Origin: a virus
Reading direction: 5' to 3' (one strand)
DNA: 61,010 nt
Virus record (IMG/VR): IMGVR_UViG_3300042465_004246
Coordinates: 1-61,010 of that record
A model generated the notes under the pieces. The model ran no database searches and was not told the DNA's origin. It saw nothing but the letters and a program-made list of their open reading frames with translations. Below are positions 2,760 through 61,010 of the stretch, one piece after another. Each line of letters begins with the position of its first letter. The first letter of the stretch is position 1. The position numbers and the translations under genes were made by a program.

Positions 2760-3075
2760 CAGAGAGGCAAGAGAGCCTTGATTGATTAAAGACTTATTGG
2801 AAAGGTACACGATGCAAAAGAGTATATGTAGAGGGTATGAATGTCGTTAGGTTATGGGTAGACATAAATAGATGTTCAGAGAGTGTTACATAAAGGGTGA
2901 TTGCAAGACAAAAACGATAGGGGAGAAAGGTGTTAACGCTTCCGCCAAAACAAAACAAATAACCTACTTGTGAGGGTTCGATTCCCTCTATATAAATGTG
3001 GTGCAAGTAACAACAATAAGGTGCAGTTAGAATGACTATTAATAGGAGCGATACCTACTGCACCACTAACCAATA
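2760..3075 (+). ncRNA. Structured 5' leader of the early operon, with T-arm-like hairpin and switching hairpins
   Basis: No gene is visible in this stretch between the candidate promoter and the first early gene. A perfect 5-bp/7-nt hairpin at 2972-2988 (GAGGG TTCGATT CCCTC) has the exact form of a tRNA T-arm. Next, GTGGTGCA (2998-3005) can pair with TGCACCAC (3059-3066), while GGTGCAG (3020-3026) can pair with CTGCACC (3058-3064); these two stems exclude each other. TAGG/CCTA (3043-3046 with 3054-3057) would stack on the second stem. I could not fold a complete tRNA or tmRNA around the T-arm. A regulatory leader RNA is inferred. Confidence 0.4.
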
Positions 3076-3089
3076 AAAACCTAGAAACC

Positions 3090-3200
3090 ATGATTGAAAG
3101 TAAAATCATCAGAATCGAGAACGGCTATGAAATAATCGGCTATTTCTTAAACAAAGTATTAATCAAAACATCCCGAATGAAAGTAAGGGGATGGAAATAA
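3090..3200 (+). CDS. First early gene, small hypothetical protein (36 aa)
   Basis: The frame opens at ATG 3090 right after a copy of the early leader element (CCTAGAAACC). The product alternates charged and hydrophobic residues (MIESKIIRIENGYEIIGYF) and ends basic. It is too short for a family assignment. It lies directly downstream of the switching hairpins, so it is the gene they would control. Confidence 0.6.
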   Translation: MIESKIIRIENGYEIIGYFLNKVLIKTSRMKVRGWK

Positions 3201-3768: not shown

Positions 3769-3963
3769 ATGAACGGAACAATCAGAACAACAACAATCAC
3801 TGAGCAATTAAAACGCAATCAAAACTTTGTCGGCATCAACGATTTTAAACATCCTGTAACACAGGAAATAATACCTGTTGATAGAGACAAGCTAACAGAC
3901 CTATTAAAGTACGAGGAGGGTCACTTGATTCGATTCAAGAAAGAAATGTTTCACAAAGGTTAA
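3769..3963 (+). CDS. Small early protein whose stop codon lies in a hammerhead ribozyme (64 aa)
   Basis: Starts behind AACCATAGAAAAA. The product has a Thr-rich N-terminus (TIRTTTITEQLKRN) and a basic C-terminus; no family recognised. Its last codons GGT TAA (3958-3963) form the 5' strand of ribozyme stem I, so translating ribosomes would have to clear this region before the RNA can fold and cleave. That couples translation of this gene with self-cleavage in principle. Confidence 0.7.
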   Translation: MNGTIRTTTITEQLKRNQNFVGINDFKHPVTQEIIPVDRDKLTDLLKYEEGHLIRFKKEMFHKG

Positions 3964-4013
3964 CTGACGAGTCTTAACTAGACGAAACGGCATCACAAGG
4001 TGCCGTCTTAACC
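3958..4013 (+). ncRNA. Hammerhead ribozyme, stem-I-open (type I)
   Basis: The whole hammerhead core is visible. CTGACGA (3964-3970) matches the CUGANGA box. Stem II is GTCT/AGAC (3971-3974 with 3980-3983), loop TAACT. The GAA of the second core box is 3984-3986. Stem III is ACGGCA/TGCCGT (3987-3992 with 4001-4006), an unbroken 6 bp, loop 3993-4000. C4007 is position 17, so cleavage would fall between 4007 and 4008. Stem I is GGTTAA/TTAACC (3958-3963 with 4008-4013), also perfect. All invariant core residues are present. It would cut the early transcript between the genes ending at 3963 and starting at 4031. Hammerheads are known from some phages; activity here is inferred from complete conservation. 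Confidence 0.93.
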
Positions 4014-4030
4014 AATTAAAACCTTACACA

Positions 4031-4144
4031 ATGGAAAAATTAATGTTTGGCTTGGCTATTTTCTTAGGAGGTGGCCTTGCAATTACTTTGCTATCTACGA
4101 TAGTGATTCTTGTTATTGACGGATTCCCAACTCTATCAATATGA
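4031..4144 (+). CDS. Single-pass membrane protein (37 aa)
   Basis: Almost the entire product is one hydrophobic helix (FGLAIFLGGGLAITLLSTIV), predicting an inner-membrane microprotein. It starts 24 bases downstream of the predicted ribozyme cleavage site, so the processed RNA would give it a short leader with a 5' hydroxyl. Its stop overlaps the next start as ATGA. Function unknown. Confidence 0.6.
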   Translation: MEKLMFGLAIFLGGGLAITLLSTIVILVIDGFPTLSI

Positions 4145-6407: not shown

Positions 6408-6660
6408 TTTAATGTTGATTTTTTTCACTTAAAAAACTATTTATCAATATGTTATGTTGGAATGTTGATTTTTCACCCAAAACTAGCGTAGAAAAAATAA
6501 CCATAGTATATGTACTATTATATATATATATATTTTTTTTTCATTCTATAGAGTAAAAATTAACATTCTAACATTAACCTAGCTACCATAAGGGATTCAA
6601 CTATGTTGATTTCATTTCAACTTAACATTTTTTATTCATTTCTAACATTCTTAACATTAT
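6391..6660. repeat. AATGTT/AACATT iteron cluster, putative replication origin
   Basis: This 250-base gap has no gene. ATGTTGATT or close variants occur at 6391, 6401, 6412, 6454, 6462 and 6603; the inverted core AACATT occurs at 6562, 6570, 6624, 6644 and 6653. Between the two orientation clusters lies a very AT-rich stretch (6500-6550) with a TATATATATATA run followed by ten T residues. Oriented short repeats flanking an easily melted segment are typical of replication origins. A transcription regulator binding array is the alternative. Confidence 0.5.
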
Positions 6661-6919
6661 GAAAGCAACAATCTATCCAACCTTGAGGTGCGTAGACATT
6701 ACGCACGGGGTTGAAACGCAGACAATTTATTTTAATCAGTTAGACGAATGGTCGTCAGTAACAATCAACGGCCAAGATATCGACCTACACTTCGACTATG
6801 AGTTACGCTCAGATTTCGGAACGAAGTTACAATGGCTGAGTCACATCATCCAAGCCTATAGTTCGACAGACTCAGAATACACGAAACAATTAATAACTAA
6901 AACAGAAGTAGAAATATGA
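6659..6919 (+). CDS. Small early protein (86 aa)
   Basis: Starts two bases after the last AACATT of the iteron cluster, so its promoter must lie in that cluster. The protein has mixed alpha/beta character (TIYFNQLDEWSSVTINGQDI) and no recognised family. Its stop overlaps the next ATG (ATATGA). Confidence 0.65.
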   Translation: MKATIYPTLRCVDITHGVETQTIYFNQLDEWSSVTINGQDIDLHFDYELRSDFGTKLQWLSHIIQAYSSTDSEYTKQLITKTEVEI

Positions 6920-16001: not shown

Positions 16002-17220
16002 ATATCAAATAGACATAGCGAATAGGGCGGTAGAGATACTAAGACTAAAGAAAATAGTCTACCTAAGCATGGAGGTTAGAACTGGAAAGACTCTGACCTC
16101 ATTTGAAACAGCAAAATTATATGGTGCGTTGAGGGTTCTCTTTATGACAAAGAAAAAAGCTATAAAGAGCATCCAAGACGACTACGATAACTTTGGATAC
16201 TCTAAGTACTTTGAGCTAGTAGTAGCAAACAACGAGTCAATACATAAGATTGACGGTAGCTTTGACTTAGTGGTGCACGATGAGTCACATAGGTTTGGAT
16301 CTTTTCCTAAGCCATCACTTGGTGCCAAACAATTTAAGTATAGGTACTCAAGCATACCACTTATTTTATTGTCAGGTACACCAACACCAGAGAGCTTCTC
16401 TCAGATGTACCATCAGTTTTGGATAAGCATATACTCACCATTTAGGGGATATGCAAACTTTTATAGGTGGGCAGACGACTACGTGATGAAGTATCAAAGA
16501 AAGATAAACAGCATGCTAGTCAATGACTATTCAAAGGGAATAGAGTCAAAGATTATGTCTGTTGTTTCTCAGTACATGATAACATTCACTCAGAGTGATG
16601 CTGGATTTTCTTCAGAGATAGAGGAGGAGGTCATACACCTAAAGATGAAGCCCGTTACCTACAGCATATGTAAAAAGCTGAAGTCAGACTTAGTTGTCGA
16701 GGGTAACAACGAGGTCATACTGGGAGACACCCCTGCAAAGTTAATGCAGAAGCTACATCAACTATACAGTGGAACCTGTAAGTTTGAGACTGGCAACTCT
16801 ATGGTACTTGATCTGACTAAGGCTGAGTTTATCAAGTCGCAATTTGCGACCGCAAAGATTGGTATATTCTACAAGTTTAAAGAAGAACTGAATGCACTAA
16901 TTCAAGTTTATGGTGCAGAAAACTTGACATCAGACATCGAGGAGTTCAACTCTAGCAACAAGTCTATAGCCCTACAGATCGTTAGTGGCAGGGAGGGTAT
17001 ATCTTTAAAGAACGCAGAGTACTTGGTTTTTTACAACATCGACTTTTCTGCTACATCATTCTGGCAGGCGAGAGACCGTATGACCACCATGGATCGTTTA
17101 TTCAATAAGATATACTGGATATTTGCTGAGGGTGGAATTGAAGATAAGATATATAAGGCCGTGAAGGCAAAGAAAAAATACACCGTAAACATTTTTAAAA
17201 AGGACTATGAAAGAGAATAA
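15988..17220 (+). CDS. SF2 DNA/RNA helicase (410 aa)
   Basis: Classic superfamily 2 motifs are in order: Q-like LREYQ at the N-terminus, motif I EVRTGKT (about residues 29-35), motif II HDESH (97-101, a DExH variant), motif III SGTPT (near 129), and motif VI QARDR (360-364). The length equals one helicase core with no accessory domains. Phage proteins of this kind assist replication or recombination, as UvsW and similar helicases do. It sits between an unknown small gene and a VRR-NUC nuclease group, with 14-base overlaps on each side. Confidence 0.88.
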   Translation: MMLREYQIDIANRAVEILRLKKIVYLSMEVRTGKTLTSFETAKLYGALRVLFMTKKKAIKSIQDDYDNFGYSKYFELVVANNESIHKIDGSFDLVVHDESHRFGSFPKPSLGAKQFKYRYSSIPLILLSGTPTPESFSQMYHQFWISIYSPFRGYANFYRWADDYVMKYQRKINSMLVNDYSKGIESKIMSVVSQYMITFTQSDAGFSSEIEEEVIHLKMKPVTYSICKKLKSDLVVEGNNEVILGDTPAKLMQKLHQLYSGTCKFETGNSMVLDLTKAEFIKSQFATAKIGIFYKFKEELNALIQVYGAENLTSDIEEFNSSNKSIALQIVSGREGISLKNAEYLVFYNIDFSATSFWQARDRMTTMDRLFNKIYWIFAEGGIEDKIYKAVKAKKKYTVNIFKKDYERE

Positions 17221-18589: not shown

Positions 18590-19727
18590 CAGAGCACTTG
18601 AGCTGTATGATAATACAACTCAAAACATTACCGAGATATCTCGAATAATAAAAAAAGAATTTCCATCAAACGATCAAGAACCAGAAGCCCTAAGGATGCA
18701 AATCTCTAGGCTTATTAAAAAGAGAGGTCTTCGTGATGCATGTGAATCTTTAAACATTGATCAATCAACCGTACCATACATGTGGTTGAAGTCTAAGGAG
18801 GCATCACTGTTTATTAGAAACCCTAACTTTAATGTTACTGAGATAAACTTTGATAAGATTATATCTGAGTGTATGGCAGATCATGTTCCAGTTAAAAAAA
18901 TTAAGGCTCCTAAGTCTTATGACTTTGATAGGGTAATATGGACCGATGTTCACGTTGGTATGGACGCAAGCCGTAAGGGTCTTGCCTTGTATCCAGCAGA
19001 ATGGAATCCTGTTGTGTTAAACAATAGAATTGACGAGATGATTGACTTCATACTAGAGAATAAAACTAGCGATATACTGATCTTAGATGAGCTCGGTGAC
19101 TATATGGATGGTTGGGATGGAGAAACGACACGTAAGGGTCACAAACTACCCCAGAACATGACCAACGAAGAGTCATTCGAGGCTGGTCTAAAAGCAAAGG
19201 TTAGACTAATAGACGAACTATCTAAACACTACAAGCACATAACGTGTAACAACATCTGTGAGGACAATCACGCTGGAGCATTTGGGTACATAGTTAACTC
19301 AGCATTTAAACAAATTGTTGACTTTAAACATTCAAACGTTGAAGTTATCAACCACCAGAAGTTCATAAATTTTTATATCATAGGAGACCATGGATTTATC
19401 ATAAGTCATGGAAAAGATTCTAGAAATTTAAAGTTTGGATTTAAACCACAGCTGGACCCAAGGTCTGCTGAGAAAATATCTCAGTACATCAGACACAACA
19501 ATGACTTGAGGTCTTGTAAGTACATTGAGTTCAGCAAGGGAGACTCACACCAGTGTCTGTTTGACATGTGTACCTCTGATGAGTTTGACTACTTTAATTA
19601 TCCAGCATTCTCACCTAGCTCAGAGTGGGTACAGACAAACTTCAAGAAGGGTAGGTCTGGCTTTGTTGTTCAAAATATCAGTAAGTTTTCAGATAGAAAA
19701 AATATTAAGCCCTACTTTTTTGAGTAG
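18573..19727 (+). CDS. Calcineurin-like metallophosphoesterase with N-terminal helical domain (384 aa)
   Basis: Residues 1-100 are helical, with a HTH-like part (ITEISRIIKKEF). From about residue 120 the metallophosphoesterase motifs appear in order: DVHVG (125-129), GDYMDG (175-180), NHAG (232-235, replacing GNHE), SHGKD (278-282) and GDSHQ near 324-328. These bind two metals and make a phosphoesterase of the SbcD/Mre11-like fold; nuclease activity on DNA is likely. No SbcC partner is visible. Its last 16 bases overlap the convergent 3800-residue gene tail to tail. Confidence 0.85.
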   Translation: MNTFHNRALELYDNTTQNITEISRIIKKEFPSNDQEPEALRMQISRLIKKRGLRDACESLNIDQSTVPYMWLKSKEASLFIRNPNFNVTEINFDKIISECMADHVPVKKIKAPKSYDFDRVIWTDVHVGMDASRKGLALYPAEWNPVVLNNRIDEMIDFILENKTSDILILDELGDYMDGWDGETTRKGHKLPQNMTNEESFEAGLKAKVRLIDELSKHYKHITCNNICEDNHAGAFGYIVNSAFKQIVDFKHSNVEVINHQKFINFYIIGDHGFIISHGKDSRNLKFGFKPQLDPRSAEKISQYIRHNNDLRSCKYIEFSKGDSHQCLFDMCTSDEFDYFNYPAFSPSSEWVQTNFKKGRSGFVVQNISKFSDRKNIKPYFFE

Positions 19728-22700
19728 GAGTTAATTATCTGATCAGCTGTTTTTCCAGATTGAATTTTTTGGAGCTCTCTATATGAAACCTCATCAACTA
19801 CTGATGAAAGTTTTACATATTCTTTGCCTTGCTTTTCAGTTAGGCCTCCATGTTCTTCAATCCATTCAATCTCGGAAACTGTTGTCTCTAATTTTGATTT
19901 TGATTTAGTTAGATCCATCTTCCATCCAGTAACTTTAGTGCCAGTCTCTTTCCCAACAGCCTTATATTTTTCATATTGTTTTTCTGTTAAGGAGTTCTTC
20001 TTTGATAACTTTATTATATTATTTGTTACGGTATTTACGTCACGTGGAACTATTCCTAATGCAAACAAAGCTTCAAATATAACGGCATTCTTAATATTAT
20101 CTTGATCTTTTGGTAGCAAATATCTTTCTGACTTATTTCCCATGTAGTCTTGAGTATATTTTCCTGTATACGCTGTGTTCATGTTATCAATTAGTTCCTT
20201 GTATGTGTCATACCCAATACCAATTGTACCATATGACTTTTTTTCATCATTAAACAATTGATACTCACGATCTTGTTTGTATTTTTCAATAAAACTTTGC
20301 TTTTCTTTATCATTCATTTTTTCTTTACCTGAAACTTCAAGCATTAGATTTTTCTTAGACACAGCTTCATCTATCATATCCTGATCTACTGACAATTGAC
20401 TAAGCAATAAGTTTGCACCTCCGACAACAGTATTATCAGCTATTGGTATTGGAGAAAGAAAATCTGTCACTATAGATCTTAACGGATATTTTGTTGCGTT
20501 CTTCATCTCCTTAGATATCTCCACACCCAATAATTTTTCTTTTTCCTCATCGTCATCATCTGCAACTGCTCCAATTATTCCCTTTGCAATAGCAAGGTAT
20601 CCAATACGAATTGATAGACCTATTGATTGATATAACGCCATTTCAAGTGGAAGAGATAATAATGACCTAGCAGCTATTATTTTGTCCTGTTTTGATGCAC
20701 CACTATTAATTCCTAGAACCTTAATATCTGATACCATTCTCGATTTTTGATTTAATGAGAATGATGCAAAAGGCAAGAATAATTTTCTCATAATCTTAGT
20801 TGTAGAATTTTGAGAGTTGAATACCTTACCAGCCATTTTAGCGTCAGATACATTTTGCTGTCTGTCTACCATAAGCATAGCATAGTCTGCCGCATCTTGG
20901 TTTACATTATGTGTAGCCCAATCAATATCTGTTCTTTGATTATTATCTGACAGGTACTGCTTATAGTAAGAAATAAATGAAGACTTAGCGATGAATACAT
21001 CTGGCTTAGATAGGCACCACTTCAACCATATTTGCTGTGCGTCTACAATAAAATTTGAAACTACCCTCGCACCAGAATTTGCTTTGTCTAATCTTCTATC
21101 AATGGACTCAATTGTTGATTGTGATTCTTGACCACGGTTGGATATTGCCATCCCTAATGAATCGATCCACGCATTTGAAGCTGGTGTCAATATATCTATT
21201 CTACTAGAGTTTGCAAATGTACTTAGTGCAATTGGAAATGTTTGCTTTACAATTTGATCTATTCCACCTAGTGCCTTTCCTACACCAATACCACCAAGAA
21301 AATTGGTTAATTGATCAAGGTAGTGCATTGTGTCAGATGGTCCAACTCTTTTATTTTTAGCGGCCTGTATATATTCAGCTATTCTTTTTCTAAATATATC
21401 TCTGTCCTCTTTTGTTGGTATTAACTTGTTAAAGTTTTTTGAGTTTATAAAACCATCTATCCTTCTTATTGCAGCTGCTGTATTCACATCAATAAGTGCT
21501 GCCTTATATGCAGATGAGTTATTAACATCAAAATCTAGGCTAACATATCTATTTGCCTTTGATACTTTTGATGCAGATGGTCTGTTTGATTCCATTAACA
21601 CCCCTGTCTTATTCTTATCTAGAAATTCTATATCCCTACCAAATGCACCAATATTTTTAGGTTCAATTATTTCTTCTAGATTTGCTTTGTCTAGTAATTT
21701 ATATCTGTCTGTACTGTATGAAGTATCACTACTAAGCATCGTATTATAAACAGAAAGACTTATGTCTGATAGGTCATTATATGTAGTCCCCCATTGATTT
21801 ATCCACCAACCAACAGCAGATCTATTAATTTTATCTACGTTAGCACTTATAACATCAATATCTCCAGAATCTACGTTAAGCTTGTCGTATATCTTTTGGT
21901 ATAGTTCACCCATTTTTTGCTCCTTAGTGGATCCTTCTAATAGACTTTTAACGCTTTCTTTTAGTACCTCTACTCTTCTTTTAAGCTCTTCTGCTTGTTG
22001 CATTGCAGTTCCTGATACATTTCTACTTAAGAATGCAAGCATCCCTCTTTCATAAACATTTTCAGAATCGTTAAAACTTTTACCATTTGGCTTTGTCTTT
22101 GCATATTGCTTAAAGTATACATCAACAGTAGTATTAAACATTTTTTCTGCTTTGTTTACTCCATTTATTAATGCAGTCCAGCCCATTTTTTTAGCTACCA
22201 TAAGTCCTTTCTTTGCACCTACAAATAGTTTTTCAAATAGTATTGGCATTGATGCAATTTGTTCAGACATGTATTGCCCTACCTTAGGACTAAAATATTT
22301 TCTAAGTGGACTAGCGACAACCTTGTCATCTATTAAGTTTTCTAGCTCAGTTTCACCTTCCTGTTTTTCTATTACCGCCTCAACAGAGCTTGTTATGTTA
22401 TTGTTTATAAAGTTATCCATTGCCTCAGCAATAAATATTGCCTCTTTAATAGACACATTATTTATATCAATGTTAAGCATTCTAGATATAATGTCAATAT
22501 TTTTCTCAGTTAGAGCTACATCTTCACCAGTCATTGGATTAATCTTATATGTAAGAATGTCTTTCATTATTGCAGACATTGTATCTATACGTCTTGACAA
22601 AAATGTTAGTATATCTGCCTCATAATCAGCATCATCTGCTTCTTCTTTTAGTGAGTTTATAATTAATTCTATATCGCTTAACGACATTTTATCATCTATT

Positions 22701-25700
22701 ACTCCAGCATCAACTAATTCACTGTGCACAGCAAGTAGTTCTTCTTTTAATATTCTTTCTTGATTTTCTATTGCATCATTTGTAAATTCTGATACTGAAT
22801 CAATATTCATTGACTCTCTCATGTTTACATCAAGATCTTTTCTATTTACTCTAGACGGCTTAATTGCATTCTTAACAATTTCTGCCATCTCTAGGTATTT
22901 ATCAATATCATCTACCATTGATGGGTCTATCTTGCTAAACTTCTTAGCCATACCAACCACCTCAGCCTGTATATCTCCCTTAAGTAATTTTCTAATTCCT
23001 TTTCTAAATGAAAAAGCTCTAGACAATCTTTCTTGATAGTCTGCCTTTTCAAATACTCTAGCAGCATAGTCTGCAAGTCTATTAACCATAACTTGGTTGT
23101 CAAGGTTTACTACACTCACTCTATTTATTATTGTTGCTGCTTGCTTTGCAGTTAATCTTCCAAGTTTTACTAGACCCTTTATTGCAGTTGATAGCAACTT
23201 TCTTTTTTGGTTAAGGTCACCCTTAGCCTCCCTAGCAGCTCTTGCTTCAAGTCTAATCTGATCTTTTAGTGCAGTCTTTTCTGTTACTGTTACTGTGCTT
23301 GGCTTAGGTGTTCCCATTATCTTAGCTACAGATGGAGCCTTCTTTAGTTTCTGTTTTTTAGATTGTCTAAAGTCTCTTATTTTTTGCTCTCTGTCTATGT
23401 CGCTTGCATCTTCATACCACTTTGATATTTGTATGTAGTCTATTACATTCTGAATAGCGGTATTCCAAGCTACTCCACGGTCTAATGATTTTTTAAATAT
23501 AGCATCTGCCTCACTGTCCATCCTTGTTTCTTGTGTAGTCTTCTGGAATTTAATGCTTGGCTGAGTAGCGTCAAACGTAGTGTTGGTACCATCTGCAAGT
23601 TTTACTTGGTTTGATTTTAATGTATAATAAACATTTTGTGGATCACCTTCTTCATCATCAAACCAATTATCGTTTATATTATTAAATACAACTCCATCAT
23701 TATTTTTATCATCTAAATTTGATGCTATTTCTCTTGTAGATGAACCATATTTATTTTTTAAGTTATCCCATTTTCTTCCTTTTGCATCAATTATTAATGG
23801 ATTCTTTATATTTAAAAAAGTTTCTAAAACAATTTCTCCAGATGCGTAACCATCTGCGTTCATATAATCATCAGTAAAATATGAACCACCCATAAAAATT
23901 TCAAAATCTTCAGTTGTCCCATGGTAAACAGGCATAGGTTCTCCGTTAGAATCAACGATTTTACTAGCGTTCTGTGGATCGTTCTCCCAGTCACCAAACC
24001 ATTTCTTAAATGCAGGTGTTCTTACCTGCTCCCATTGTACATCATTGAGATTAGACGGCTTACCGTTTGGAGCGGTCTTCTGGAACTTAATATTACTACC
24101 AGACTTATCTAACAATGGCTCATCAGATTTAACTACTTTATTTGTAGCCTCATCATATTTACCATATACAGTAAATCTATCTGAATTTGGAGATGCTTCT
24201 ATTGCATTTTTTGCGTAAACCAAACCACCAACTTGAATAACTTCATCTGCCGAAATAACTGGTGCACCATTTGCTCTATTCCAAAAGAAGCTATGTCTAA
24301 ATGGATTCATACCTACCTGTACCCAGCTTGGATCGTTCATAATTTCTTCAATCATAGCCTGAGCATTTAATCCCTGCTCTTCAGCTGTCTCTCCTGGTAT
24401 GTCTACCATCTCACCTTCCATTCTAGCAAATGTGCCTTTTGAATTAAATCCAGCTGCAATATTTAATGCTACTTTAGGGTCTGTTGTAAACTCAACATTC
24501 TTTAACCTTGCAGCATTTCTATAAGAAATTACATTTCCATTCTTTACTCTTCCATCATGTACAGTTACAATCCATGCATTATGATGCAAGTAAGATGGTA
24601 TGTCAAGTCTAAGTCCAACTCTTTTTATTTTTTTACCAAGTTCATCTACAACTGGAGCCATTAATTTGCTTGCCTTTTTGCCTAGTGCTGTAATCATGTG
24701 CGATAATGTTGATGGTGCAAATAAGGTACCAATTGATCCAATTGGAGAATATTTTTTTACTGCATCCACATATTCCCCTTGATTAATTTTACCCTTAGCT
24801 AAATCAATTGCAACAGATCTAAGGTTATCGCTATTTTTTGCGATTGGACTGTTCATCATACTTTTAACAGGAGTAGCAACCCAATTTTGTGTTAACTGTT
24901 TTTTAATCTTAGAAGGAGATCCCTCTTCGACTGCAAAGCTAGGCAACAGACCAATCTTTTGATCTGCAAACTTCATCTCATCGTACACCTCTCCAACCAT
25001 CTGATTGGCCTGATCTATCTTGCCTTCTTTACGAAGCTGTCTAGCTTTCTCTCTCTTCTTAAATGCAGCGTCATTAACACCACTAAAATTAACCCAGCTA
25101 TTTTGACCTCTTGTTTCAGATGTCATAGCTTTTTTAGCTTCTGGTGAATACATCTCAGAGTGAACTCTCCATGCATTTTCTTCTCCTATTGGTCCAAAAC
25201 TATTACCTAGTTTAGCGTGACCAAAGAAGTCATGTACAAATCTAAAGACATCATTTACTAGCAATGTCTCTCCATTTGCGTCCTTTCTACCAGAGTCTTT
25301 TAATAATATATTTTCTTCTCTTTGTTTGTCAGTAATTGGCTCTTCACCAAATCCAGACTCTGTTGAGAATATCTTCATTCTATTGTTGTCTCTAAGATCA
25401 TTTATCATGTCCTCAGAAGAAGAGTATGGCTCGTTGTTATTTATCTCTAACTTGTATCCCTTTGCTGTTATAGCGTCATATTGATCTAAGGTCTCCTTTG
25501 CCATTGCCTCATAAGCGGCCTTTACTTCAGGGATATTAGGATCATCTTTCATCTTATCGTAAGCGTCAGATATTCTTTTAGATAGGCCTTCGTCTAGCTT
25601 TGTTATCTTTTCAACAGGTGTGTATTCCATTCCTATTGACTTCATGTACGACTTTGCTATGTCAAGTGCCTGTTTTAATGGCTCGTTAAATAGCTTGTTA

Positions 25701-28700
25701 CCAGCTACTGGTGCTGTAAGTTTATCGGTCTTATTTTTTCGGAATTTTATTTTTGATGATTCTTTAAACTCCGCTACTTTTGGTATAGCTCCTGCACTAG
25801 ATGAAACATTTTTTTGTTCAAATTTAGGCTCTTCTGATTTTCTTGATACCTCTTCACCACCTTTATTATACTTTGTGTATGTCTCAGTAATATCACTTGA
25901 TTTATATAGTTCTGTCGGTTGATAAATACCATTTATTTTTGCTAAAAGAGTCCATCCAAATGACGGATGATTATCTATATCACTTTCTTTTGTTTGAACT
26001 ATTTTAAAAGTATTAGGATCAAACTTAACAATATTCATAATCTCACCACCAGTCATTCCTTGATTTAATGGATCCATTATTCTATTGTAGAACTCTTGTT
26101 TGTTTTTTATTCCAATTGCTTTTTGAAATTCTTTATTTGCAGATATTGCATTGTTTAAAGCCTTTCTTAAGTTAGGAGAATAATTATTCTTTATATCTAA
26201 TAGCTCAATAATTTTTTTAGGATCTGACTTAAATGAATCAAAGTTTTTAATATTTTCTCCATATTTTTCTGCAAATTGATTAAACTCTTTTTGATTTGAT
26301 TTATTAGTTTTTATTGCATCATTAAATACATCTATTAATTTATCTTTAGTAAGTATTTCATTATCTAATACTAAAGAAGATAATTCAGCAAAGGTATGTT
26401 GTTGAAACTGCCAAGAGTTACTTAATGTTCCAGAATGAGGTGCAAATATTTTAGCTCCACTCATTTCAGCATTTCTAACAAAAGTTTCAGCTTGTGCTTT
26501 TGTATTAAATGCTGCAAGGTTTGATACTTCACCAATTTTTTTATTATTTAATGACATCATTAATGGAACATAATTTTTTCCTCCTAACATGTTTATTTCA
26601 AATCCATTACCTAAATCAGTTTTACCTGCGTTTGTAAAATCATACATATTAGTAATAAACTTTTCACCATTAAGTTCTCGTATATCTAAGTCTTCAACAA
26701 ACTCTATAATAAAATCCCTTGAATCTTCAGATACACTTTTTGCTTTTTTAAATTTTACTTTAGGGATATTAAATGTTCCAACTTCACCACCGTCTCCTGG
26801 ATCATTTATCTCAATCTCATCCCCAGTCCTAAGTTTCTTAGACATGGTATTAATAAAGTCAGCAGCGTCTTGTGCAGTTGCTGATGCAGAAAATATAACT
26901 GGCAAACCTAGCTTCTTAGCGATATTATTTATCAATGTTTTGAATTGCTGTAGCTTTGTTGTAGTTAATTCTTGCTCTGCCTCAGATAGTATTCCACCAA
27001 GCTCTGATATGTATTCTTCTGCCTTTTCATCTTCATTGTATTGAGATACAAAATCATCTAATCTTTGTTTAATACCTTTGTCAGATATAATATTTTTAAG
27101 GCCCTTTGCCATCAATAATATTGACCCAGACTTCATTCCGTTTTTTTCAATCAACGCATGAAATGCTTCATGATACACCGTACCAATAGTTGCAGATTCT
27201 AGGTTAATATGAATATCACCGTCTACATATAGACCGCTTGATTCTGTAAGCCCAGTCTTTTCTTCTTTTGTTAATTGTTTCTTTGATGCCTCAATAGCAC
27301 TAGCCATTTCTTGGCCATTGTTGTGCATGTATATCTTAACTCCAGGGATCGCATTTAAAACCATTTTAGCGGCTTTCACAATCAACTTATTTTTAGGCGT
27401 AGTTTGTTTTGATGCAAACTCCCTGACATTTTCTTTTGTCAGTAAGTTGTTTGTTGTCTCAGTTGTAGCTCCAAATACATTGGGCATTCTTCCTTCCTTT
27501 AAGGCTTTAGAGATTTCTCTGTGCTGCTCTGGAGTAAAACTCATAGGGTTCTCACCAGTTGCTCCAGTCTTAATATTTTCAAATGTTGCTAGATCAAATA
27601 ATGATTCCTGACCAGCAAGTCTTGCAAATTCAAGTGCTTGTTCTCTTGATGTTTCAGGAACTACTACACTAAGGTCAATTGATACTTGATTGCTATTAGG
27701 AAACTTATATATTCCAGCCTTAACGACACCAGCATCACCTATCATTTTTTGACGCTCTGCAACAAAGTCGGCAACCATTTCTGGAGTCAATTCTTCTGTT
27801 GTAGTGTTCATGCTATCAACTGGAACAACTAAACCAACACCCTCATACTTAGTACCATCAATATTGAATGTAGCACCGTCTTCAGACTCAGGTGTAAGAG
27901 ATTTAACTCTATCTACCTCAGCTGTTGTATTGGTTGTTATAACAGGCTTATCGATTACTACTTCACCTGTAGGCTCTAATAGAGGGCTTATTAAGTTGTC
28001 ATACTTATTGTATATACTATTATACTTAGCCAATACAGTTTTTGGCATGATAGTTTTATCTATCTTACCATTTACTTTGTATTTTTCTATTTTAGGTATG
28101 GCCTTAAGAAGTTCAGCCTGTTCTTGTTCTCTGTAGGCTGCTACTTGCTCTTCTTGCTGTATTTTGCTTGCGACAGTGCTATCGCTACGATCTGCTTCAT
28201 TGACCGTGGTTTCCCGTTGTCCCCCTTCGCTGACCCCGACTTCTGGTTGTCCTTCACCAGTTCCCTGATATTCGCTGATACCGCCTTCTGCTGTACCTTC
28301 TTGTTGCTTGATGTTGTCTTCTTTAGTGGCATTTTCTGATGTTGTTTTTAGTGCTTCGTTTATTTCTTTTATTCTATTTGTTTCTTTTACTACTAGATTA
28401 GGTTCTTTATCTTTTATTTCGTTTTGTATTATTTCTCTTTCTTGTAGTAAAGAAAAAGCTTCTCTTTGAGACTGTGTAGTTAATGAAGCTGGTATTTTTG
28501 TTAAGACAGAATATGATTTATTCAATTCGTCTATCTTCTTGTTCATTTCTTCAGACGAAATTTTTCCATTCTTTTCATCCTCCTTTATACTAGCTATCCA
28601 TCCATTTCTTGATTCAGTATTTAAAACAAAATTTTTATATATATCAAACTTATTGTTTGATGATATATCTACAATATTATCTTTTACTGAAGCACCAGCA

Positions 28701-31114
28701 GATGTCATTCCACCAGCCAAGAAACCTAGCTTAAATGCATCAACTCCTTGGCCCATTAATTCAGCCCATCCACCAGCTTTTGATAGGTCTGGTGCGTCTT
28801 TAAAGTACTCCTCGTTGAAGTTATCGTTCTTTAATATTTCGTTAACAGCAAACTTTTGAATACCCTCAAATTCTTGTTGCATAAATTCAACATTTCCCTC
28901 AGAAACACCAGCACCTGTAATTTTAATTAGACCTTTAGCTATTGATGCACCTATGTTTTTTTGTATTGCTGAATTTAATTCAATTAAACCAGCATTCTTA
29001 GGTAAGTTCTTAAATGTTTTTGTTACTATATAGTTAGCAAATTTATTGAATAATGGATTTTTTCCAGCACCAACGGCAACATCAAACCCCCACTTTTCCA
29101 TTTGACCTATAACAAGACCATATGGAACTGATATTAATTTCTTTTCGTTTTCGTTTAAATGATCAAAATCTGGGCCTCTCATTTGATCCTCCATTGCATT
29201 GTATGACATGGAGAAGAATGCAGCTGTACTTCCAACCTTTCCCAGTGCACCACCTGTTGCAGCGGTACCAAAACTTTCTGCTACAGCATTTAAGGCTTGA
29301 GGAATCATACCTCTGTTTTCTGATCTTATGTATTCTTTATTTGTTCCAGTTATATTTTCCCAACCTAAATCATATTTTTCTTTAGCAAAATCTTTTACTG
29401 TAGCCTGTGCAGCATTAGCAATTTGAGCATCGGTTAATCCTTTTACTTTTTTTTCACCGTAATTCCCATCTATTAATTTTGAAAACTTTTCATCTCCCAT
29501 TATAAGATTTCCAGCAGCTAAACTATAATCTAATCCAGTTAATGCTAAATTAGACATGCCAGATGCAAAAGACTTTACAAGTGCCCCTACAGTACTTCCC
29601 TTTTCTTCTGGGGTACCCTTTGTTTGAATCAACTCTTCAGCAGAGATAAGTTTTTGAGCTCTGTTAGATAGTTCTTGTGCTCTTTTTTGTTTTATATTAA
29701 TGTCTTTATATAGTTTTGATAAATCATCGTTCTCTTTATCAAATTCTTGTTGGGTCATCTTGCCACTAGCTACTCTTTTTTTAAATAGCTTTGTTTTTTC
29801 TTCGTATGACTTAATGTCTTTATCAATAACATCTACTTCATTTCGTTTGATATCATTTTCAACAGCCATTGCCTCTGTTCTGGCCCATTCTGAAATTACG
29901 TCTACCCTATCGCTGGTCATTTTAATTTTACCATTAGAGTTAATCATTGCGTCAATATAACTTTCAGTATCTTTTATATTTTCAAGACCTTCTTTTTCTC
30001 TTTTTGTAAATAAATTATAACGAAGAAATTCTTTTGCTATGCTTGATGAGTTTGATTTAGATAGGTCAATTGTTATTGAGTTTTCAAGCCCTTCATCATC
30101 ACCATTCATTCCTGGAAAATACGAGTTAATGGTTAGCTCGTTTCCCTCTTGATTAAAACCAAAGTTTGAACCATATAATTCTTTTTTTAAAAATTTATCT
30201 ACATCCCTTTTATTAAAGTCTATCTTGTCTATCTTATTTATTTTTGATAGTTGTTTCATCTGAGACTCACCAATAATATTAGCGGCCATATCAACAGCTT
30301 CTTGTGATTTTATTGGGTCTAATCTCTCTTTTGGTTTTCCATTATTATCTAACCAATATAAATATGTTTCCTCTGTTACGGGATTTTTATAGAAATTCTC
30401 ATTGTCCTTTCCCTCTTGTAGCATGTAAAGCTTTCCTTCAAAAGTTGCAGGCTCTATTTTTTCTTCAGGAAGTATAGAATCCTTAGCTTCTTCTTGCTCA
30501 AATGCTCGTGTTTTTTCTGTAGGTATTGTTTGGTCAATTGGTGTAACAGTGGCACCTTTCCAGCGTTCTTTTGGTAAATCTGGATACGCCTTGTTTACTT
30601 GTTCTTTAGTTGCATATTCTGATTCAGGAATTTCTTTAGCTTGATTTGAATACCAGTCAGCTTGAAAATCGCTTGCCAATACGGCCTGCTTGTCTAGTAT
30701 CTTTTCTCTTGCTCTAACGTCACCCTTTGATAGTGGAATATAATTCTCTCCAATTTTTTTTAGCCAAGAGTCACCTTCTTTTCTGTATAGTGCCCCAGGA
30801 TTACTTGGAAGAATGTATATAGAAGGCTCCAACTGCCTTGTAGTCGTTGTGGATAACCGCTCCGATGAACCAACTTCCAAATTTGATTCCGTACTTTCGA
30901 CTTGGCTTTTTTTTTTAATGATTGGAGTTTCAAAATACTCTAGCTTAAAAGTCTCTGGATCTAGATCAGTCAGCTCATTAGAATCTAGATATGAATATAG
31001 CTCTGAGAATTTATTATCATTCTGAGAGTATTCATTATAAAAAGAATTCTCATCAAGGTCTGTCATTTCTCTTGATACTAGCTCTTGGTATAAGTTTTTA
31101 TATTTAGCGTTCAT
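19712..31114 (-). CDS. Giant polyvalent virion protein: zincin metallopeptidase, ART-like and several LPD domains (3800 aa)
   Basis: At 3800 residues it takes up 19 percent of the genome. Visible parts: a coiled-coil-rich N-terminus; a zincin metallopeptidase site HEAFH (about 1315-1319, TIGTVYHEAFHALIE); a conserved domain with FVHDFFGHAK (near 1960) found in polyvalent phage proteins; a YLHHNAWIVTVHDGR domain (about 2170-2320); an ART-PolyVal-like domain with FKKWFGDWE and PVYHGT (about 2360-2520); a long helical part; and a hydrophobic stretch near 3490-3515 followed by an acidic run. This set matches the polyvalent proteins that phages eject with their DNA. It lies last in the late block after two internal virion proteins, so ejection with the genome is likely. 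The zinc and ART activities are inferred from motifs. Confidence 0.85.
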   Translation of the reverse strand: MNAKYKNLYQELVSREMTDLDENSFYNEYSQNDNKFSELYSYLDSNELTDLDPETFKLEYFETPIIKKKSQVESTESNLEVGSSERLSTTTTRQLEPSIYILPSNPGALYRKEGDSWLKKIGENYIPLSKGDVRAREKILDKQAVLASDFQADWYSNQAKEIPESEYATKEQVNKAYPDLPKERWKGATVTPIDQTIPTEKTRAFEQEEAKDSILPEEKIEPATFEGKLYMLQEGKDNENFYKNPVTEETYLYWLDNNGKPKERLDPIKSQEAVDMAANIIGESQMKQLSKINKIDKIDFNKRDVDKFLKKELYGSNFGFNQEGNELTINSYFPGMNGDDEGLENSITIDLSKSNSSSIAKEFLRYNLFTKREKEGLENIKDTESYIDAMINSNGKIKMTSDRVDVISEWARTEAMAVENDIKRNEVDVIDKDIKSYEEKTKLFKKRVASGKMTQQEFDKENDDLSKLYKDINIKQKRAQELSNRAQKLISAEELIQTKGTPEEKGSTVGALVKSFASGMSNLALTGLDYSLAAGNLIMGDEKFSKLIDGNYGEKKVKGLTDAQIANAAQATVKDFAKEKYDLGWENITGTNKEYIRSENRGMIPQALNAVAESFGTAATGGALGKVGSTAAFFSMSYNAMEDQMRGPDFDHLNENEKKLISVPYGLVIGQMEKWGFDVAVGAGKNPLFNKFANYIVTKTFKNLPKNAGLIELNSAIQKNIGASIAKGLIKITGAGVSEGNVEFMQQEFEGIQKFAVNEILKNDNFNEEYFKDAPDLSKAGGWAELMGQGVDAFKLGFLAGGMTSAGASVKDNIVDISSNNKFDIYKNFVLNTESRNGWIASIKEDEKNGKISSEEMNKKIDELNKSYSVLTKIPASLTTQSQREAFSLLQEREIIQNEIKDKEPNLVVKETNRIKEINEALKTTSENATKEDNIKQQEGTAEGGISEYQGTGEGQPEVGVSEGGQRETTVNEADRSDSTVASKIQQEEQVAAYREQEQAELLKAIPKIEKYKVNGKIDKTIMPKTVLAKYNSIYNKYDNLISPLLEPTGEVVIDKPVITTNTTAEVDRVKSLTPESEDGATFNIDGTKYEGVGLVVPVDSMNTTTEELTPEMVADFVAERQKMIGDAGVVKAGIYKFPNSNQVSIDLSVVVPETSREQALEFARLAGQESLFDLATFENIKTGATGENPMSFTPEQHREISKALKEGRMPNVFGATTETTNNLLTKENVREFASKQTTPKNKLIVKAAKMVLNAIPGVKIYMHNNGQEMASAIEASKKQLTKEEKTGLTESSGLYVDGDIHINLESATIGTVYHEAFHALIEKNGMKSGSILLMAKGLKNIISDKGIKQRLDDFVSQYNEDEKAEEYISELGGILSEAEQELTTTKLQQFKTLINNIAKKLGLPVIFSASATAQDAADFINTMSKKLRTGDEIEINDPGDGGEVGTFNIPKVKFKKAKSVSEDSRDFIIEFVEDLDIRELNGEKFITNMYDFTNAGKTDLGNGFEINMLGGKNYVPLMMSLNNKKIGEVSNLAAFNTKAQAETFVRNAEMSGAKIFAPHSGTLSNSWQFQQHTFAELSSLVLDNEILTKDKLIDVFNDAIKTNKSNQKEFNQFAEKYGENIKNFDSFKSDPKKIIELLDIKNNYSPNLRKALNNAISANKEFQKAIGIKNKQEFYNRIMDPLNQGMTGGEIMNIVKFDPNTFKIVQTKESDIDNHPSFGWTLLAKINGIYQPTELYKSSDITETYTKYNKGGEEVSRKSEEPKFEQKNVSSSAGAIPKVAEFKESSKIKFRKNKTDKLTAPVAGNKLFNEPLKQALDIAKSYMKSIGMEYTPVEKITKLDEGLSKRISDAYDKMKDDPNIPEVKAAYEAMAKETLDQYDAITAKGYKLEINNNEPYSSSEDMINDLRDNNRMKIFSTESGFGEEPITDKQREENILLKDSGRKDANGETLLVNDVFRFVHDFFGHAKLGNSFGPIGEENAWRVHSEMYSPEAKKAMTSETRGQNSWVNFSGVNDAAFKKREKARQLRKEGKIDQANQMVGEVYDEMKFADQKIGLLPSFAVEEGSPSKIKKQLTQNWVATPVKSMMNSPIAKNSDNLRSVAIDLAKGKINQGEYVDAVKKYSPIGSIGTLFAPSTLSHMITALGKKASKLMAPVVDELGKKIKRVGLRLDIPSYLHHNAWIVTVHDGRVKNGNVISYRNAARLKNVEFTTDPKVALNIAAGFNSKGTFARMEGEMVDIPGETAEEQGLNAQAMIEEIMNDPSWVQVGMNPFRHSFFWNRANGAPVISADEVIQVGGLVYAKNAIEASPNSDRFTVYGKYDEATNKVVKSDEPLLDKSGSNIKFQKTAPNGKPSNLNDVQWEQVRTPAFKKWFGDWENDPQNASKIVDSNGEPMPVYHGTTEDFEIFMGGSYFTDDYMNADGYASGEIVLETFLNIKNPLIIDAKGRKWDNLKNKYGSSTREIASNLDDKNNDGVVFNNINDNWFDDEEGDPQNVYYTLKSNQVKLADGTNTTFDATQPSIKFQKTTQETRMDSEADAIFKKSLDRGVAWNTAIQNVIDYIQISKWYEDASDIDREQKIRDFRQSKKQKLKKAPSVAKIMGTPKPSTVTVTEKTALKDQIRLEARAAREAKGDLNQKRKLLSTAIKGLVKLGRLTAKQAATIINRVSVVNLDNQVMVNRLADYAARVFEKADYQERLSRAFSFRKGIRKLLKGDIQAEVVGMAKKFSKIDPSMVDDIDKYLEMAEIVKNAIKPSRVNRKDLDVNMRESMNIDSVSEFTNDAIENQERILKEELLAVHSELVDAGVIDDKMSLSDIELIINSLKEEADDADYEADILTFLSRRIDTMSAIMKDILTYKINPMTGEDVALTEKNIDIISRMLNIDINNVSIKEAIFIAEAMDNFINNNITSSVEAVIEKQEGETELENLIDDKVVASPLRKYFSPKVGQYMSEQIASMPILFEKLFVGAKKGLMVAKKMGWTALINGVNKAEKMFNTTVDVYFKQYAKTKPNGKSFNDSENVYERGMLAFLSRNVSGTAMQQAEELKRRVEVLKESVKSLLEGSTKEQKMGELYQKIYDKLNVDSGDIDVISANVDKINRSAVGWWINQWGTTYNDLSDISLSVYNTMLSSDTSYSTDRYKLLDKANLEEIIEPKNIGAFGRDIEFLDKNKTGVLMESNRPSASKVSKANRYVSLDFDVNNSSAYKAALIDVNTAAAIRRIDGFINSKNFNKLIPTKEDRDIFRKRIAEYIQAAKNKRVGPSDTMHYLDQLTNFLGGIGVGKALGGIDQIVKQTFPIALSTFANSSRIDILTPASNAWIDSLGMAISNRGQESQSTIESIDRRLDKANSGARVVSNFIVDAQQIWLKWCLSKPDVFIAKSSFISYYKQYLSDNNQRTDIDWATHNVNQDAADYAMLMVDRQQNVSDAKMAGKVFNSQNSTTKIMRKLFLPFASFSLNQKSRMVSDIKVLGINSGASKQDKIIAARSLLSLPLEMALYQSIGLSIRIGYLAIAKGIIGAVADDDDEEKEKLLGVEISKEMKNATKYPLRSIVTDFLSPIPIADNTVVGGANLLLSQLSVDQDMIDEAVSKKNLMLEVSGKEKMNDKEKQSFIEKYKQDREYQLFNDEKKSYGTIGIGYDTYKELIDNMNTAYTGKYTQDYMGNKSERYLLPKDQDNIKNAVIFEALFALGIVPRDVNTVTNNIIKLSKKNSLTEKQYEKYKAVGKETGTKVTGWKMDLTKSKSKLETTVSEIEWIEEHGGLTEKQGKEYVKLSSVVDEVSYRELQKIQSGKTADQIINSYSKK

Positions 31115-59425: not shown

Positions 59426-59624
59426 GCACATCGTGCCCAGATACCTTGTCAAATAGTATAACGTCACCACTAGATATTCCATCTATATTAGCACCAGTCT
59501 CTATGACTGTTGCCTTGTGGTAACGCATGTCCTTGGAGTCGTCACCGCTGAGTATTAATCCACTCTTGGACTCTCTCTGCTCGAATACCCTCTCTATTAA
59601 TATAAATCTATTTAGAACCTTCAT
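59367..59624 (-). CDS. groES: Co-chaperonin GroES-like protein (85 aa)
   Basis: The start KVLNRFILIERVFEQRESKS, mobile loop SGLILSGDDSKDM, ATVIETGANIDGISSGDVIL and the final strand VIQEKDVVCVL follow the GroES fold in order; the length (85) is slightly under E. coli GroES (97). The loop keeps the GLIL hydrophobic contact to GroEL. It starts 17 bases before the end of groEL, so the order is groEL-groES, opposite to bacteria. It presumably caps the phage GroEL. Confidence 0.92.
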   Translation of the reverse strand: MKVLNRFILIERVFEQRESKSGLILSGDDSKDMRYHKATVIETGANIDGISSGDVILFDKVSGHDVLIGDQRMSVIQEKDVVCVL

Positions 59625-61010
59625 AGTCTCTTATGTTTGTTATTATTGCGTCTGTACTCATTATTGTGGTTGCAACAGACACAGCATTCATCAATGCATT
59701 TCTTGTCACCTTAGTTGGGTCAATAATACCCATACCGATCATGTCACCGTAGCACTCGTTCTTCACGTCATACCCGATATTTCTACCGATTGGCATTTCA
59801 GATAAAATTAGTTCAGGATTCTTTCCAGAGTTCAACACGATCTGCTTGAATGGAGACGCAACAGCGTTTAACATTATCTTTTCAGCCGTAGTACTTACAT
59901 CTGGAAACTCAAGGTCAAATGCATCTATCAATGCAATCCCTCCGCCAGGAAGGATTCCGTCCTCTAGTGCAGCCTTTACAGCACACACAGCATCGTCAAT
60001 ACGGTCCTTCTTTTCTTTTTGCTCAATGTCGCTAAGTGCACCAACATATATGATACCAATTCCACCAGACATGTTTGCGATTCTCTCGTTTATAAAGTTT
60101 ACCTCGTTAACGTCTGTAGTCTCAGCAATTGATTCCTTTAACACCTGAATGTTCTTGTCTATCGCATCAGTCATAGCTGGTAACGGCATAAATAAGGTCA
60201 TGTCCTTGTTGACAATAACCCTAGAAGCACGACCAAGGTCCTCAACCTCAATAACAGATAGATCGTCACCAGTGTCCTCAGAGAAGTATGTTCCTCCCAA
60301 CGAAACAGATAAGTCAAACAACAGGTCCTTGCTCCTGTATCCAAATGATGGTGGGATTATGTTGCAGGCCTTTATCTTGCCCTGTGCAACGTTCAAGTTT
60401 AACGTGTTTAGTGCAGATGCACTCAGCTGACCGATGATTAGTAACGACTTATTAGATGATATAACATGAGCGATAACCTTCTCTATGTTTAGTATGTTGG
60501 ATATCTCGTGGTCCGTGATCAATACATACGGATTGTCAAGTACACACTCCTGCTTTTTTTGATCAGTGATGAAGTACTTAGAAGAGAACCCCCGATCTAT
60601 CTTCATTCCACTGATTATCTCTACATGTGTGCTTGGAGTCTGACTGTTCTCAACAGTAACAACGTTAACCTTGCCAAATGTGTCAGCGATCATCTTGCCA
60701 ACCTCCCTGTCGTTATTCGCAGAGATGGTAGCAACGTCAAGTAGCTTCTTTCCACTTAATTTCTTGGACATCTTACTCAACCTTGAGCAAATTTTAGTCG
60801 TTATCTCAGATATCTCACGTATCACCTCTGTAATATTGTCGGCACTGTCGATAATATTGTCAGCGTTGTCAATTATAGACTCTGCCAACACAATTGCCGT
60901 TGTGGTTCCGTCTCCAGCAACAACAGCAGTGCGATCAGCTGCCTGTCGCATCATCATTACAGCTAAATTTTCAGTGGGATCGTACAGATTGATCGACCTA
61001 GCGACCGTTA
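59608..61010 (-). CDS. groEL: Chaperonin GroEL, main part (continues at window start)
   Basis: Covers all but the first residues of the gene begun at 400. AGDGTTTAIVLAESI (ATP-binding Asp), an apical domain with DRGFSSKYFITD, and RIDDAVCAVKAALEDGILPG then GGGIALID (catalytic Asp region of the intermediate domain and the VEEGxxxGGG signature) are conserved, so ATPase function should be intact. The GGM tail of bacterial GroEL is absent, as is common in phage versions. Two bases differ from the copy at 1-234; both are synonymous. Confidence 0.95.
   Translation of the reverse strand, partial: TVARSINLYDPTENLAVMMMRQAADRTAVVAGDGTTTAIVLAESIIDNADNIIDSADNITEVIREISEITTKICSRLSKMSKKLSGKKLLDVATISANNDREVGKMIADTFGKVNVVTVENSQTPSTHVEIISGMKIDRGFSSKYFITDQKKQECVLDNPYVLITDHEISNILNIEKVIAHVISSNKSLLIIGQLSASALNTLNLNVAQGKIKACNIIPPSFGYRSKDLLFDLSVSLGGTYFSEDTGDDLSVIEVEDLGRASRVIVNKDMTLFMPLPAMTDAIDKNIQVLKESIAETTDVNEVNFINERIANMSGGIGIIYVGALSDIEQKEKKDRIDDAVCAVKAALEDGILPGGGIALIDAFDLEFPDVSTTAEKIMLNAVASPFKQIVLNSGKNPELILSEMPIGRNIGYDVKNECYGDMIGMGIIDPTKVTRNALMNAVSVATTIMSTDAIITNIRDYEGSK
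60777..61010. repeat. 234-base terminal overlap with window start
   Basis: Identical to 1-234 except G44/T60820 and A107/T60883. It marks the closure of a circular or circularly permuted 60,776-bp sequence, or a genuine terminal redundancy. Confidence 0.9.

Follow-up and report, generated by a model that had tools for sequence, protein, structure and literature searches.

A predicted type I hammerhead ribozyme at the border of two small phage genes and its counterparts at gene borders in other phages

On the plus strand of the window, by which we mean the whole 61,010-nt stretch of DNA that was analyzed, 56 bases between two small genes (3958-4013) form a canonical type I hammerhead with its core intact. 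The features of the locus are as follows, R1 being a covariance model described below and percentages referring to surveyed hammerheads of this group.

3067, 3550, 3746 and 4355 (+): further copies of the leader element (T)TAACCAA, 22-24 nt before an ATG
3769-3963 (+): upstream gene, 64 aa (P0001), no known family; stop codon TAA at 3961-3963, inside stem I
3957 (+): conserved A directly 5' of stem I (97-100%)
3958-3963 (+): stem I 5' arm GGUUAA, pairing with 4008-4013
3964-3970 (+): core box CUGACGA (C3-A9), from sequence, scan and R1
3971-3983 (+): stem II GUCU/AGAC, arms 3971-3974 and 3980-3983, from fold and covariation
3975-3979 (+): loop II, pentaloop UAACU, fitting the conserved UNANU
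3984-3987 (+): core box GAAA (G12-A15.1), from sequence and R1
3987-4006 (+): stem III, 8 bp with an ACAA loop, closing pair A15.1-U16.1, from fold and covariation
4007 (+): C17, with the predicted cut at 4007/4008 (2',3'-cyclic phosphate and 5'-OH), from the family consensus position
4008-4013 (+): stem I 3' arm UUAACC, with which the downstream leader begins
4008-4030 (+): 23-nt leader of the downstream mRNA after the predicted cut
4014-4015 (+): conserved AA directly 3' of stem I (first A 97%, second A 75-84%)
4031-4144 (+): downstream gene, 37 aa (P0002), with one hydrophobic stretch, starting at ATG 4031

Read 5' to 3', the element runs GGUUAA-CUGACGA-GUCU-UAACU-AGAC-GAA-ACGGCAUC-ACAA-GGUGCCGU-C/UUAACC, the slash marking the predicted cut. 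Every position of the core consensus is present (C3UGANGA9, G12AAA15.1, U16.1 and H17), stem I is open while stems II and III are closed by loops, as in type I, and the three-stem junction has covariation support that for stem I comes from a wider set of sequences only. The isolated RNA adopts the hammerhead structure (folding z = -3.4). A geometric scan for all three hammerhead topologies on both strands of the 61,010 bases returned 3958-4013 as the sole hammerhead, none of 150 dinucleotide shuffles gave one with stems of at least 6/4/6, and any hammerhead-like match arose at a rate of 0.04 per shuffle. Model R1, built from 26 hammerheads of other contigs with the window phage and its near relatives left out, scored the element at 63.9 bits (E 1.2e-16) and found no second site in the window up to E 5. 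With all core positions, the stems and this score in place, the identification made in a preliminary description is borne out, as are the coordinates it gave for CTGACGA, GAAA, U4006, C4007 and the arms of stems I and II, the stop codon seen within stem I at this site, and the ATG at 4031 behind a 23-nt leader; the predicted cleavage between 4007 and 4008 agrees with the family consensus. Its stem lengths of 6, 4 and 6 bp hold for stems I and II, but stem III had been undercounted and comprises 8 bp (A3987-C3994 paired with G3999-U4006, U4006 being U16.1). Judged from these letters, RNA of the 56-base stretch would almost certainly cut itself between the two small genes.

The Rfam covariance search that had been proposed as a check gave no hammerhead in the window at gathering scores; the independent model R1 recognized the element clearly. 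The best Rfam model below gathering was RF03152 (RAGATH-1-hammerhead, 28.5 bits against a required 56.3), which has the same core as the window element. It differs from that element in the sequence and length of stem I and in possessing a 5' hairpin with an AGGAG loop; we rejected membership on the score, the mismatched pairs of the 5' hairpin and the missing AGGAG loop. Membership in RF00008 (hammerhead type III) was likewise rejected, at 16.5 against 48.5 bits, with a wrong fold and without a closed stem I. The catalytic core is the same as in RF00163 and RF00008 (hammerhead type I and type III), from which the window type is set apart by an open, compact stem I that has exactly 6 bp and is closed by A/A. 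In 13 related loci, too, no hammerhead reached an Rfam gathering score, while R1 or the geometric scan found dozens of them in those same loci, and the Rfam miss therefore reflects a limit of the models and not an absence. Standard RNA annotation thus misses this group of hammerheads. Matches to SNORA25, lncRNA and HOTAIRM1 models were attributed to chance.

The window terminase is 69% identical to that of the uncultured phage MW202828, 43% to those of Flavobacterium phages (Elemovirus) and 36-38% to those of Cellulophaga phages, and from these identities we infer a Flavobacterium-type phage infecting Bacteroidota. That agrees with the earlier description of an intergenic site among tiny genes in a phage of this kind. 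Among GenBank phages there were no nucleotide relatives. Single hammerheads occur in five Elemovirus species and in Cellulophaga phage phi19:3; R1 found none in phi38:1, Calle_1, Gundel_1 or MW202828. Hundreds of related viral sequences carry such a hammerhead at gene borders, and related and unrelated phages have from one to nine each, the window having one.

Broken stems in related phages had been named in advance as the observation that would speak against a ribozyme. To locate the orthologous site independently of the ribozyme sequence, we used the neighboring proteins, with the product of a neighboring 88-aa gene as the query because the 37-aa downstream protein is too short. Across five distinct sequences at this site, 80 of 80 cells were paired and no pair was broken; three pairs, in stems II and III, had changed on both sides, stem I was invariant, and the core was invariant except at N7. 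In four of six orthologues, stem II is preceded by an additional U. The hammerhead stays with the downstream gene in these relatives, and the end of the upstream gene moves: in L009, after a 1-nt deletion, the core UGA serves as the upstream stop, and in L004 another gene has been inserted and the stop lies upstream of stem I. A stop codon within stem I is thus recurrent among hammerheads of this group, yet at this particular site it is not conserved.

A pattern search that fixed only stem I and the core boxes widened the comparison to 181 distinct matches, 158 of which have U16.1 and a stem III of at least 4 bp. Stem II paired fully over 4 bp in 90 of 134 sequences, against 11.5 (maximum 20) after its arms were exchanged between sequences, and stem III in 103 of 129, against 7.2 (maximum 15); a choice between several possible boxes was made in favor of the one that paired better, and nearly all the failures listed had a single candidate. 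In alignments of members, which were chosen by pairing, covariation reached 0.66-0.68, compared with 0.14 when shuffled and 0.03-0.10 when slid. These alignments were gap-free, as MAFFT placed gaps wrongly at the variable stem III. As a rough negative set, bacterial genomes yielded 22 places with the GGTTAA pattern, most of them lacking stems II and III and so attributable to chance. Comparison shows the predicted hammerhead fold to be under selection as RNA: stems II and III vary in a compensatory manner while the core letters stay fixed, which argues for selection on folding and catalysis and not on the DNA sequence.

Hammerheads working at full speed need a tertiary contact between stem I and loop II. 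Positions that had played no part in selecting members were surveyed in 141 members with GGTTAA and 36 with other stems I. Most have a loop II of the form U-N-A-N-U, and together with the A and AA that flank stem I this suggests that the two could dock. In about 20 members, A9 and stem II are separated by one additional base, a U in nearly every case; the stems of these members are intact and covary. Such extra-U hammerheads recur in L002, L003, L004, L009, L016, L084 and others as a natural variant at the border of the core. The text of Perreault et al. 2011 (PMC3088659) treats insertions after A6 and at 13a, not an extra base before stem II.

The preliminary description had found the placement of the element unusual. 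This part of it was not supported, since location at a gene border is the rule both in this group and in unrelated phages, and clustered cases had already been published in 2011 (PMC3088659). The hammerheads sit at gene borders on the coding strand. Among 137 GGTTAA members, an upstream open reading frame stops from -17 to +1 of the core in 85% and a start lies 15-30 nt past the cut in 88%; both are so placed in 75%, against 1.1% of random nearby places and 0.4% on the antisense strand. The leader between cut and ATG has a median of 22 nt (interquartile range, 20-24). The stop is the TAA of stem I in 44 of 251 cases and the UGA of the core in 47 of 251, and in a further arrangement the stop codon has its last letter on the first base of stem I (36 of 251, at -8). 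By this comparison, the predicted cut is held about 22 nt before the next start, at a place beside the upstream gene's end or inside it. Relatives and unrelated phages can have several such hammerheads (two to nine per record) flanking their genes on the coding strand, and arrays of four to nine per phage delimit blocks of one to a few genes. One metagenomic phage has nine over about 4.3 kb, between blocks of one to four genes, and in most of these the stop falls exactly before C3.

Within the window operon, the element (T)TAACCAA stands 22-24 nt before the ATG of five early genes, one of which has the hammerhead. The 3' arm of stem I is therefore a leader element that several genes of the operon share, an identity that would account for the constancy of stem I beside variable stems II and III. 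Where the window border at 3067-3090 has neither, L008 and L009 have a whole gene plus a hammerhead between two copies of the leader, and at the place where the window genes overlap (ATGA), a second hammerhead is present in L002 and L006. From these sequences, gene-plus-hammerhead cassettes appear to be gained and lost between leader repeats. At most junctions in the window operon a hammerhead is absent, so not every gene can depend on processing; in the first leader (2990-3095) we looked for a further hammerhead or other ribozyme and found none. Just ahead of the first early gene leader is a tRNA-like element (2886-2996) with a good T-arm, GUGAGGGUUCGAUUCCCUC, a score of 17.6 bits against the tRNA model and a large insert. 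L074 has, at 6569-6705, a tRNA that passes the Rfam gathering score (35.6 bits) and spans 137 nt, with an insert of about 65 nt. Window positions 2998-3067 contain a possible pseudoknot (GGTGCAG 3020 with CTGCACC 3057, along with TTAG/CTAA) immediately ahead of the leader element CTAACCAA, and this stretch is kept in L008 and L009.

We consider it probable that the element acts in cis, as a type I hammerhead that cuts the polycistronic early mRNA co-transcriptionally between the two small genes. The fold would be complete as the polymerase leaves stem I (the probability of stem I is 0.93 in transcripts ending at 4016-4020), and the cut would most likely come before or between ribosomes. The upstream mRNA would then have the stem III hairpin and a 2',3'-cyclic phosphate at its 3' end and resist 3' exonucleases, and the downstream mRNA would begin with a 5'-hydroxyl and a leader barely long enough for an initiating ribosome, insulated from the ribosome traffic and decay of its upstream neighbor; this protection and insulation are what general knowledge of RNA decay would lead one to expect. 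With the 3' arm of stem I serving as the shared leader element, gain or loss of a cassette would leave the leaders of neighboring genes unchanged. Folding would be blocked for a time by ribosomes that end translation at the stop codon in stem I or start it at 4031, and a competition between translation and folding, as the preliminary description had it, is plausible from the layout of these signals.

A cut at this position might instead destabilize the mRNA or time the shut-off of the upstream or downstream gene, removing the native 5' end so that one half decays. The position of cleavage is equally compatible with such a role, and with the stop and the start leader flanking the cut, ribosome occupancy could set its rate. 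We regard it as unlikely, however, as the tightly kept leader of 20-24 nt preserves the translation start region, and a cut upstream of the ribosome-binding region leaves the downstream gene translatable.

Still less support exists for a regulated switch controlled by co-transcriptional timing or by ribosomes. An alternative stem of equal energy, AAGGUU (3956-3961) with AACCUU (4020-4025), would hide the leader and disable stem I, and similar alternatives occur in L371 and L373. It competes with stem I only after leader synthesis: with the complete leader the probability of stem I drops from 0.93 to 0.30-0.54, and there is no competition before the ribozyme is complete. The motif AACC also belongs to the ordinary leader of genes without a hammerhead, and the AACC partner is absent in L369 and most other members, so that the alternative fold looks incidental and a switch very improbable. 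Slightly more improbable again is a recombination site or relic, kept as a border of DNA cassettes with an inactive ribozyme. Cassettes of gene and hammerhead do come and go between leader repeats, and the extra-U variants may be slow, but compensatory variation in stems II and III beside fixed core letters points to selection on RNA. Chance resemblance, to which the unreached Rfam gathering scores might lend some color, is virtually eliminated by the absence of strong matches in 150 shuffles, an E value of 1e-16 and conservation at the orthologous site.

Processing between genes, the reading we prefer, has a clear precedent. Perreault et al. 2011 (PMC3088659) described multiple hammerheads of types I, II and III flanking genes or short gene blocks in prophages, and proposed that long transcripts are processed to operon- or gene-length mRNAs. 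Phage hammerheads in that study cleaved in vitro and one array cleaved in Escherichia coli, while 4 of 18 consensus hammerheads tested were inactive. The same paper reports, for the haloviruses HF1 and HF2, a hammerhead that precedes an early gene by 13 nt, where a mapped 5' transcript end lies near the cleavage site of this HHphage variant; these are archaeal viruses with a variant core, whereas the window core is canonical. As in the prophage arrays described there, several hammerheads per region can lie between phage genes in the group studied here. Both this idea and such a kind of placement are hence already known, and the window element is another member of a published type. Relative to the text of that article, the present analysis puts numbers on the positional rule and adds the cassettes, the flank and loop motif, the variant with an extra U, the blind spot of Rfam and orthologues in flavobacterial phages that are in culture; the sequence data set of Perreault et al. 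may hold some of this.

The biological role of phage hammerheads has been open since their discovery, and through the fixed relation of stop, cut and start it takes on a concrete shape that can be put in numbers, namely, the dicing of transcripts into mRNAs with a minimal leader. Tentatively, phages could share a standard gene-border module in the form of a large subfamily of compact type I hammerheads that Rfam does not see, with A/A closing a 6-bp stem I, a UNANU loop II and, optionally, an extra U before stem II. Such a module would bring the stop of the upstream gene with it, cleave at a constant 20-24 nt ahead of the next start and come in swappable cassettes, each an independent mRNA unit. 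The role can be tested directly in infected cells, as Elemovirus, on Flavobacterium sp. BAL314, and Cellulophaga phage phi19:3 are cultured and have orthologues.

Several minor observations concern the same phages. In Elemovirus elemoE (NC_055854), the hammerhead lies between gp64 and gp66. The annotated open reading frame gp65 (16289-16396; L349) runs antisense over it and is probably a false gene, and an unannotated short open reading frame ends at stem I. Elsewhere in the window, the minus strand carries a GroEL-like protein (phrog_5725) at 59608-60957, also annotated in Elemovirus and MW202828, and a single open reading frame of 3800 aa at 19712-31114, with counterparts of similar size in MW202828 and Elemovirus.
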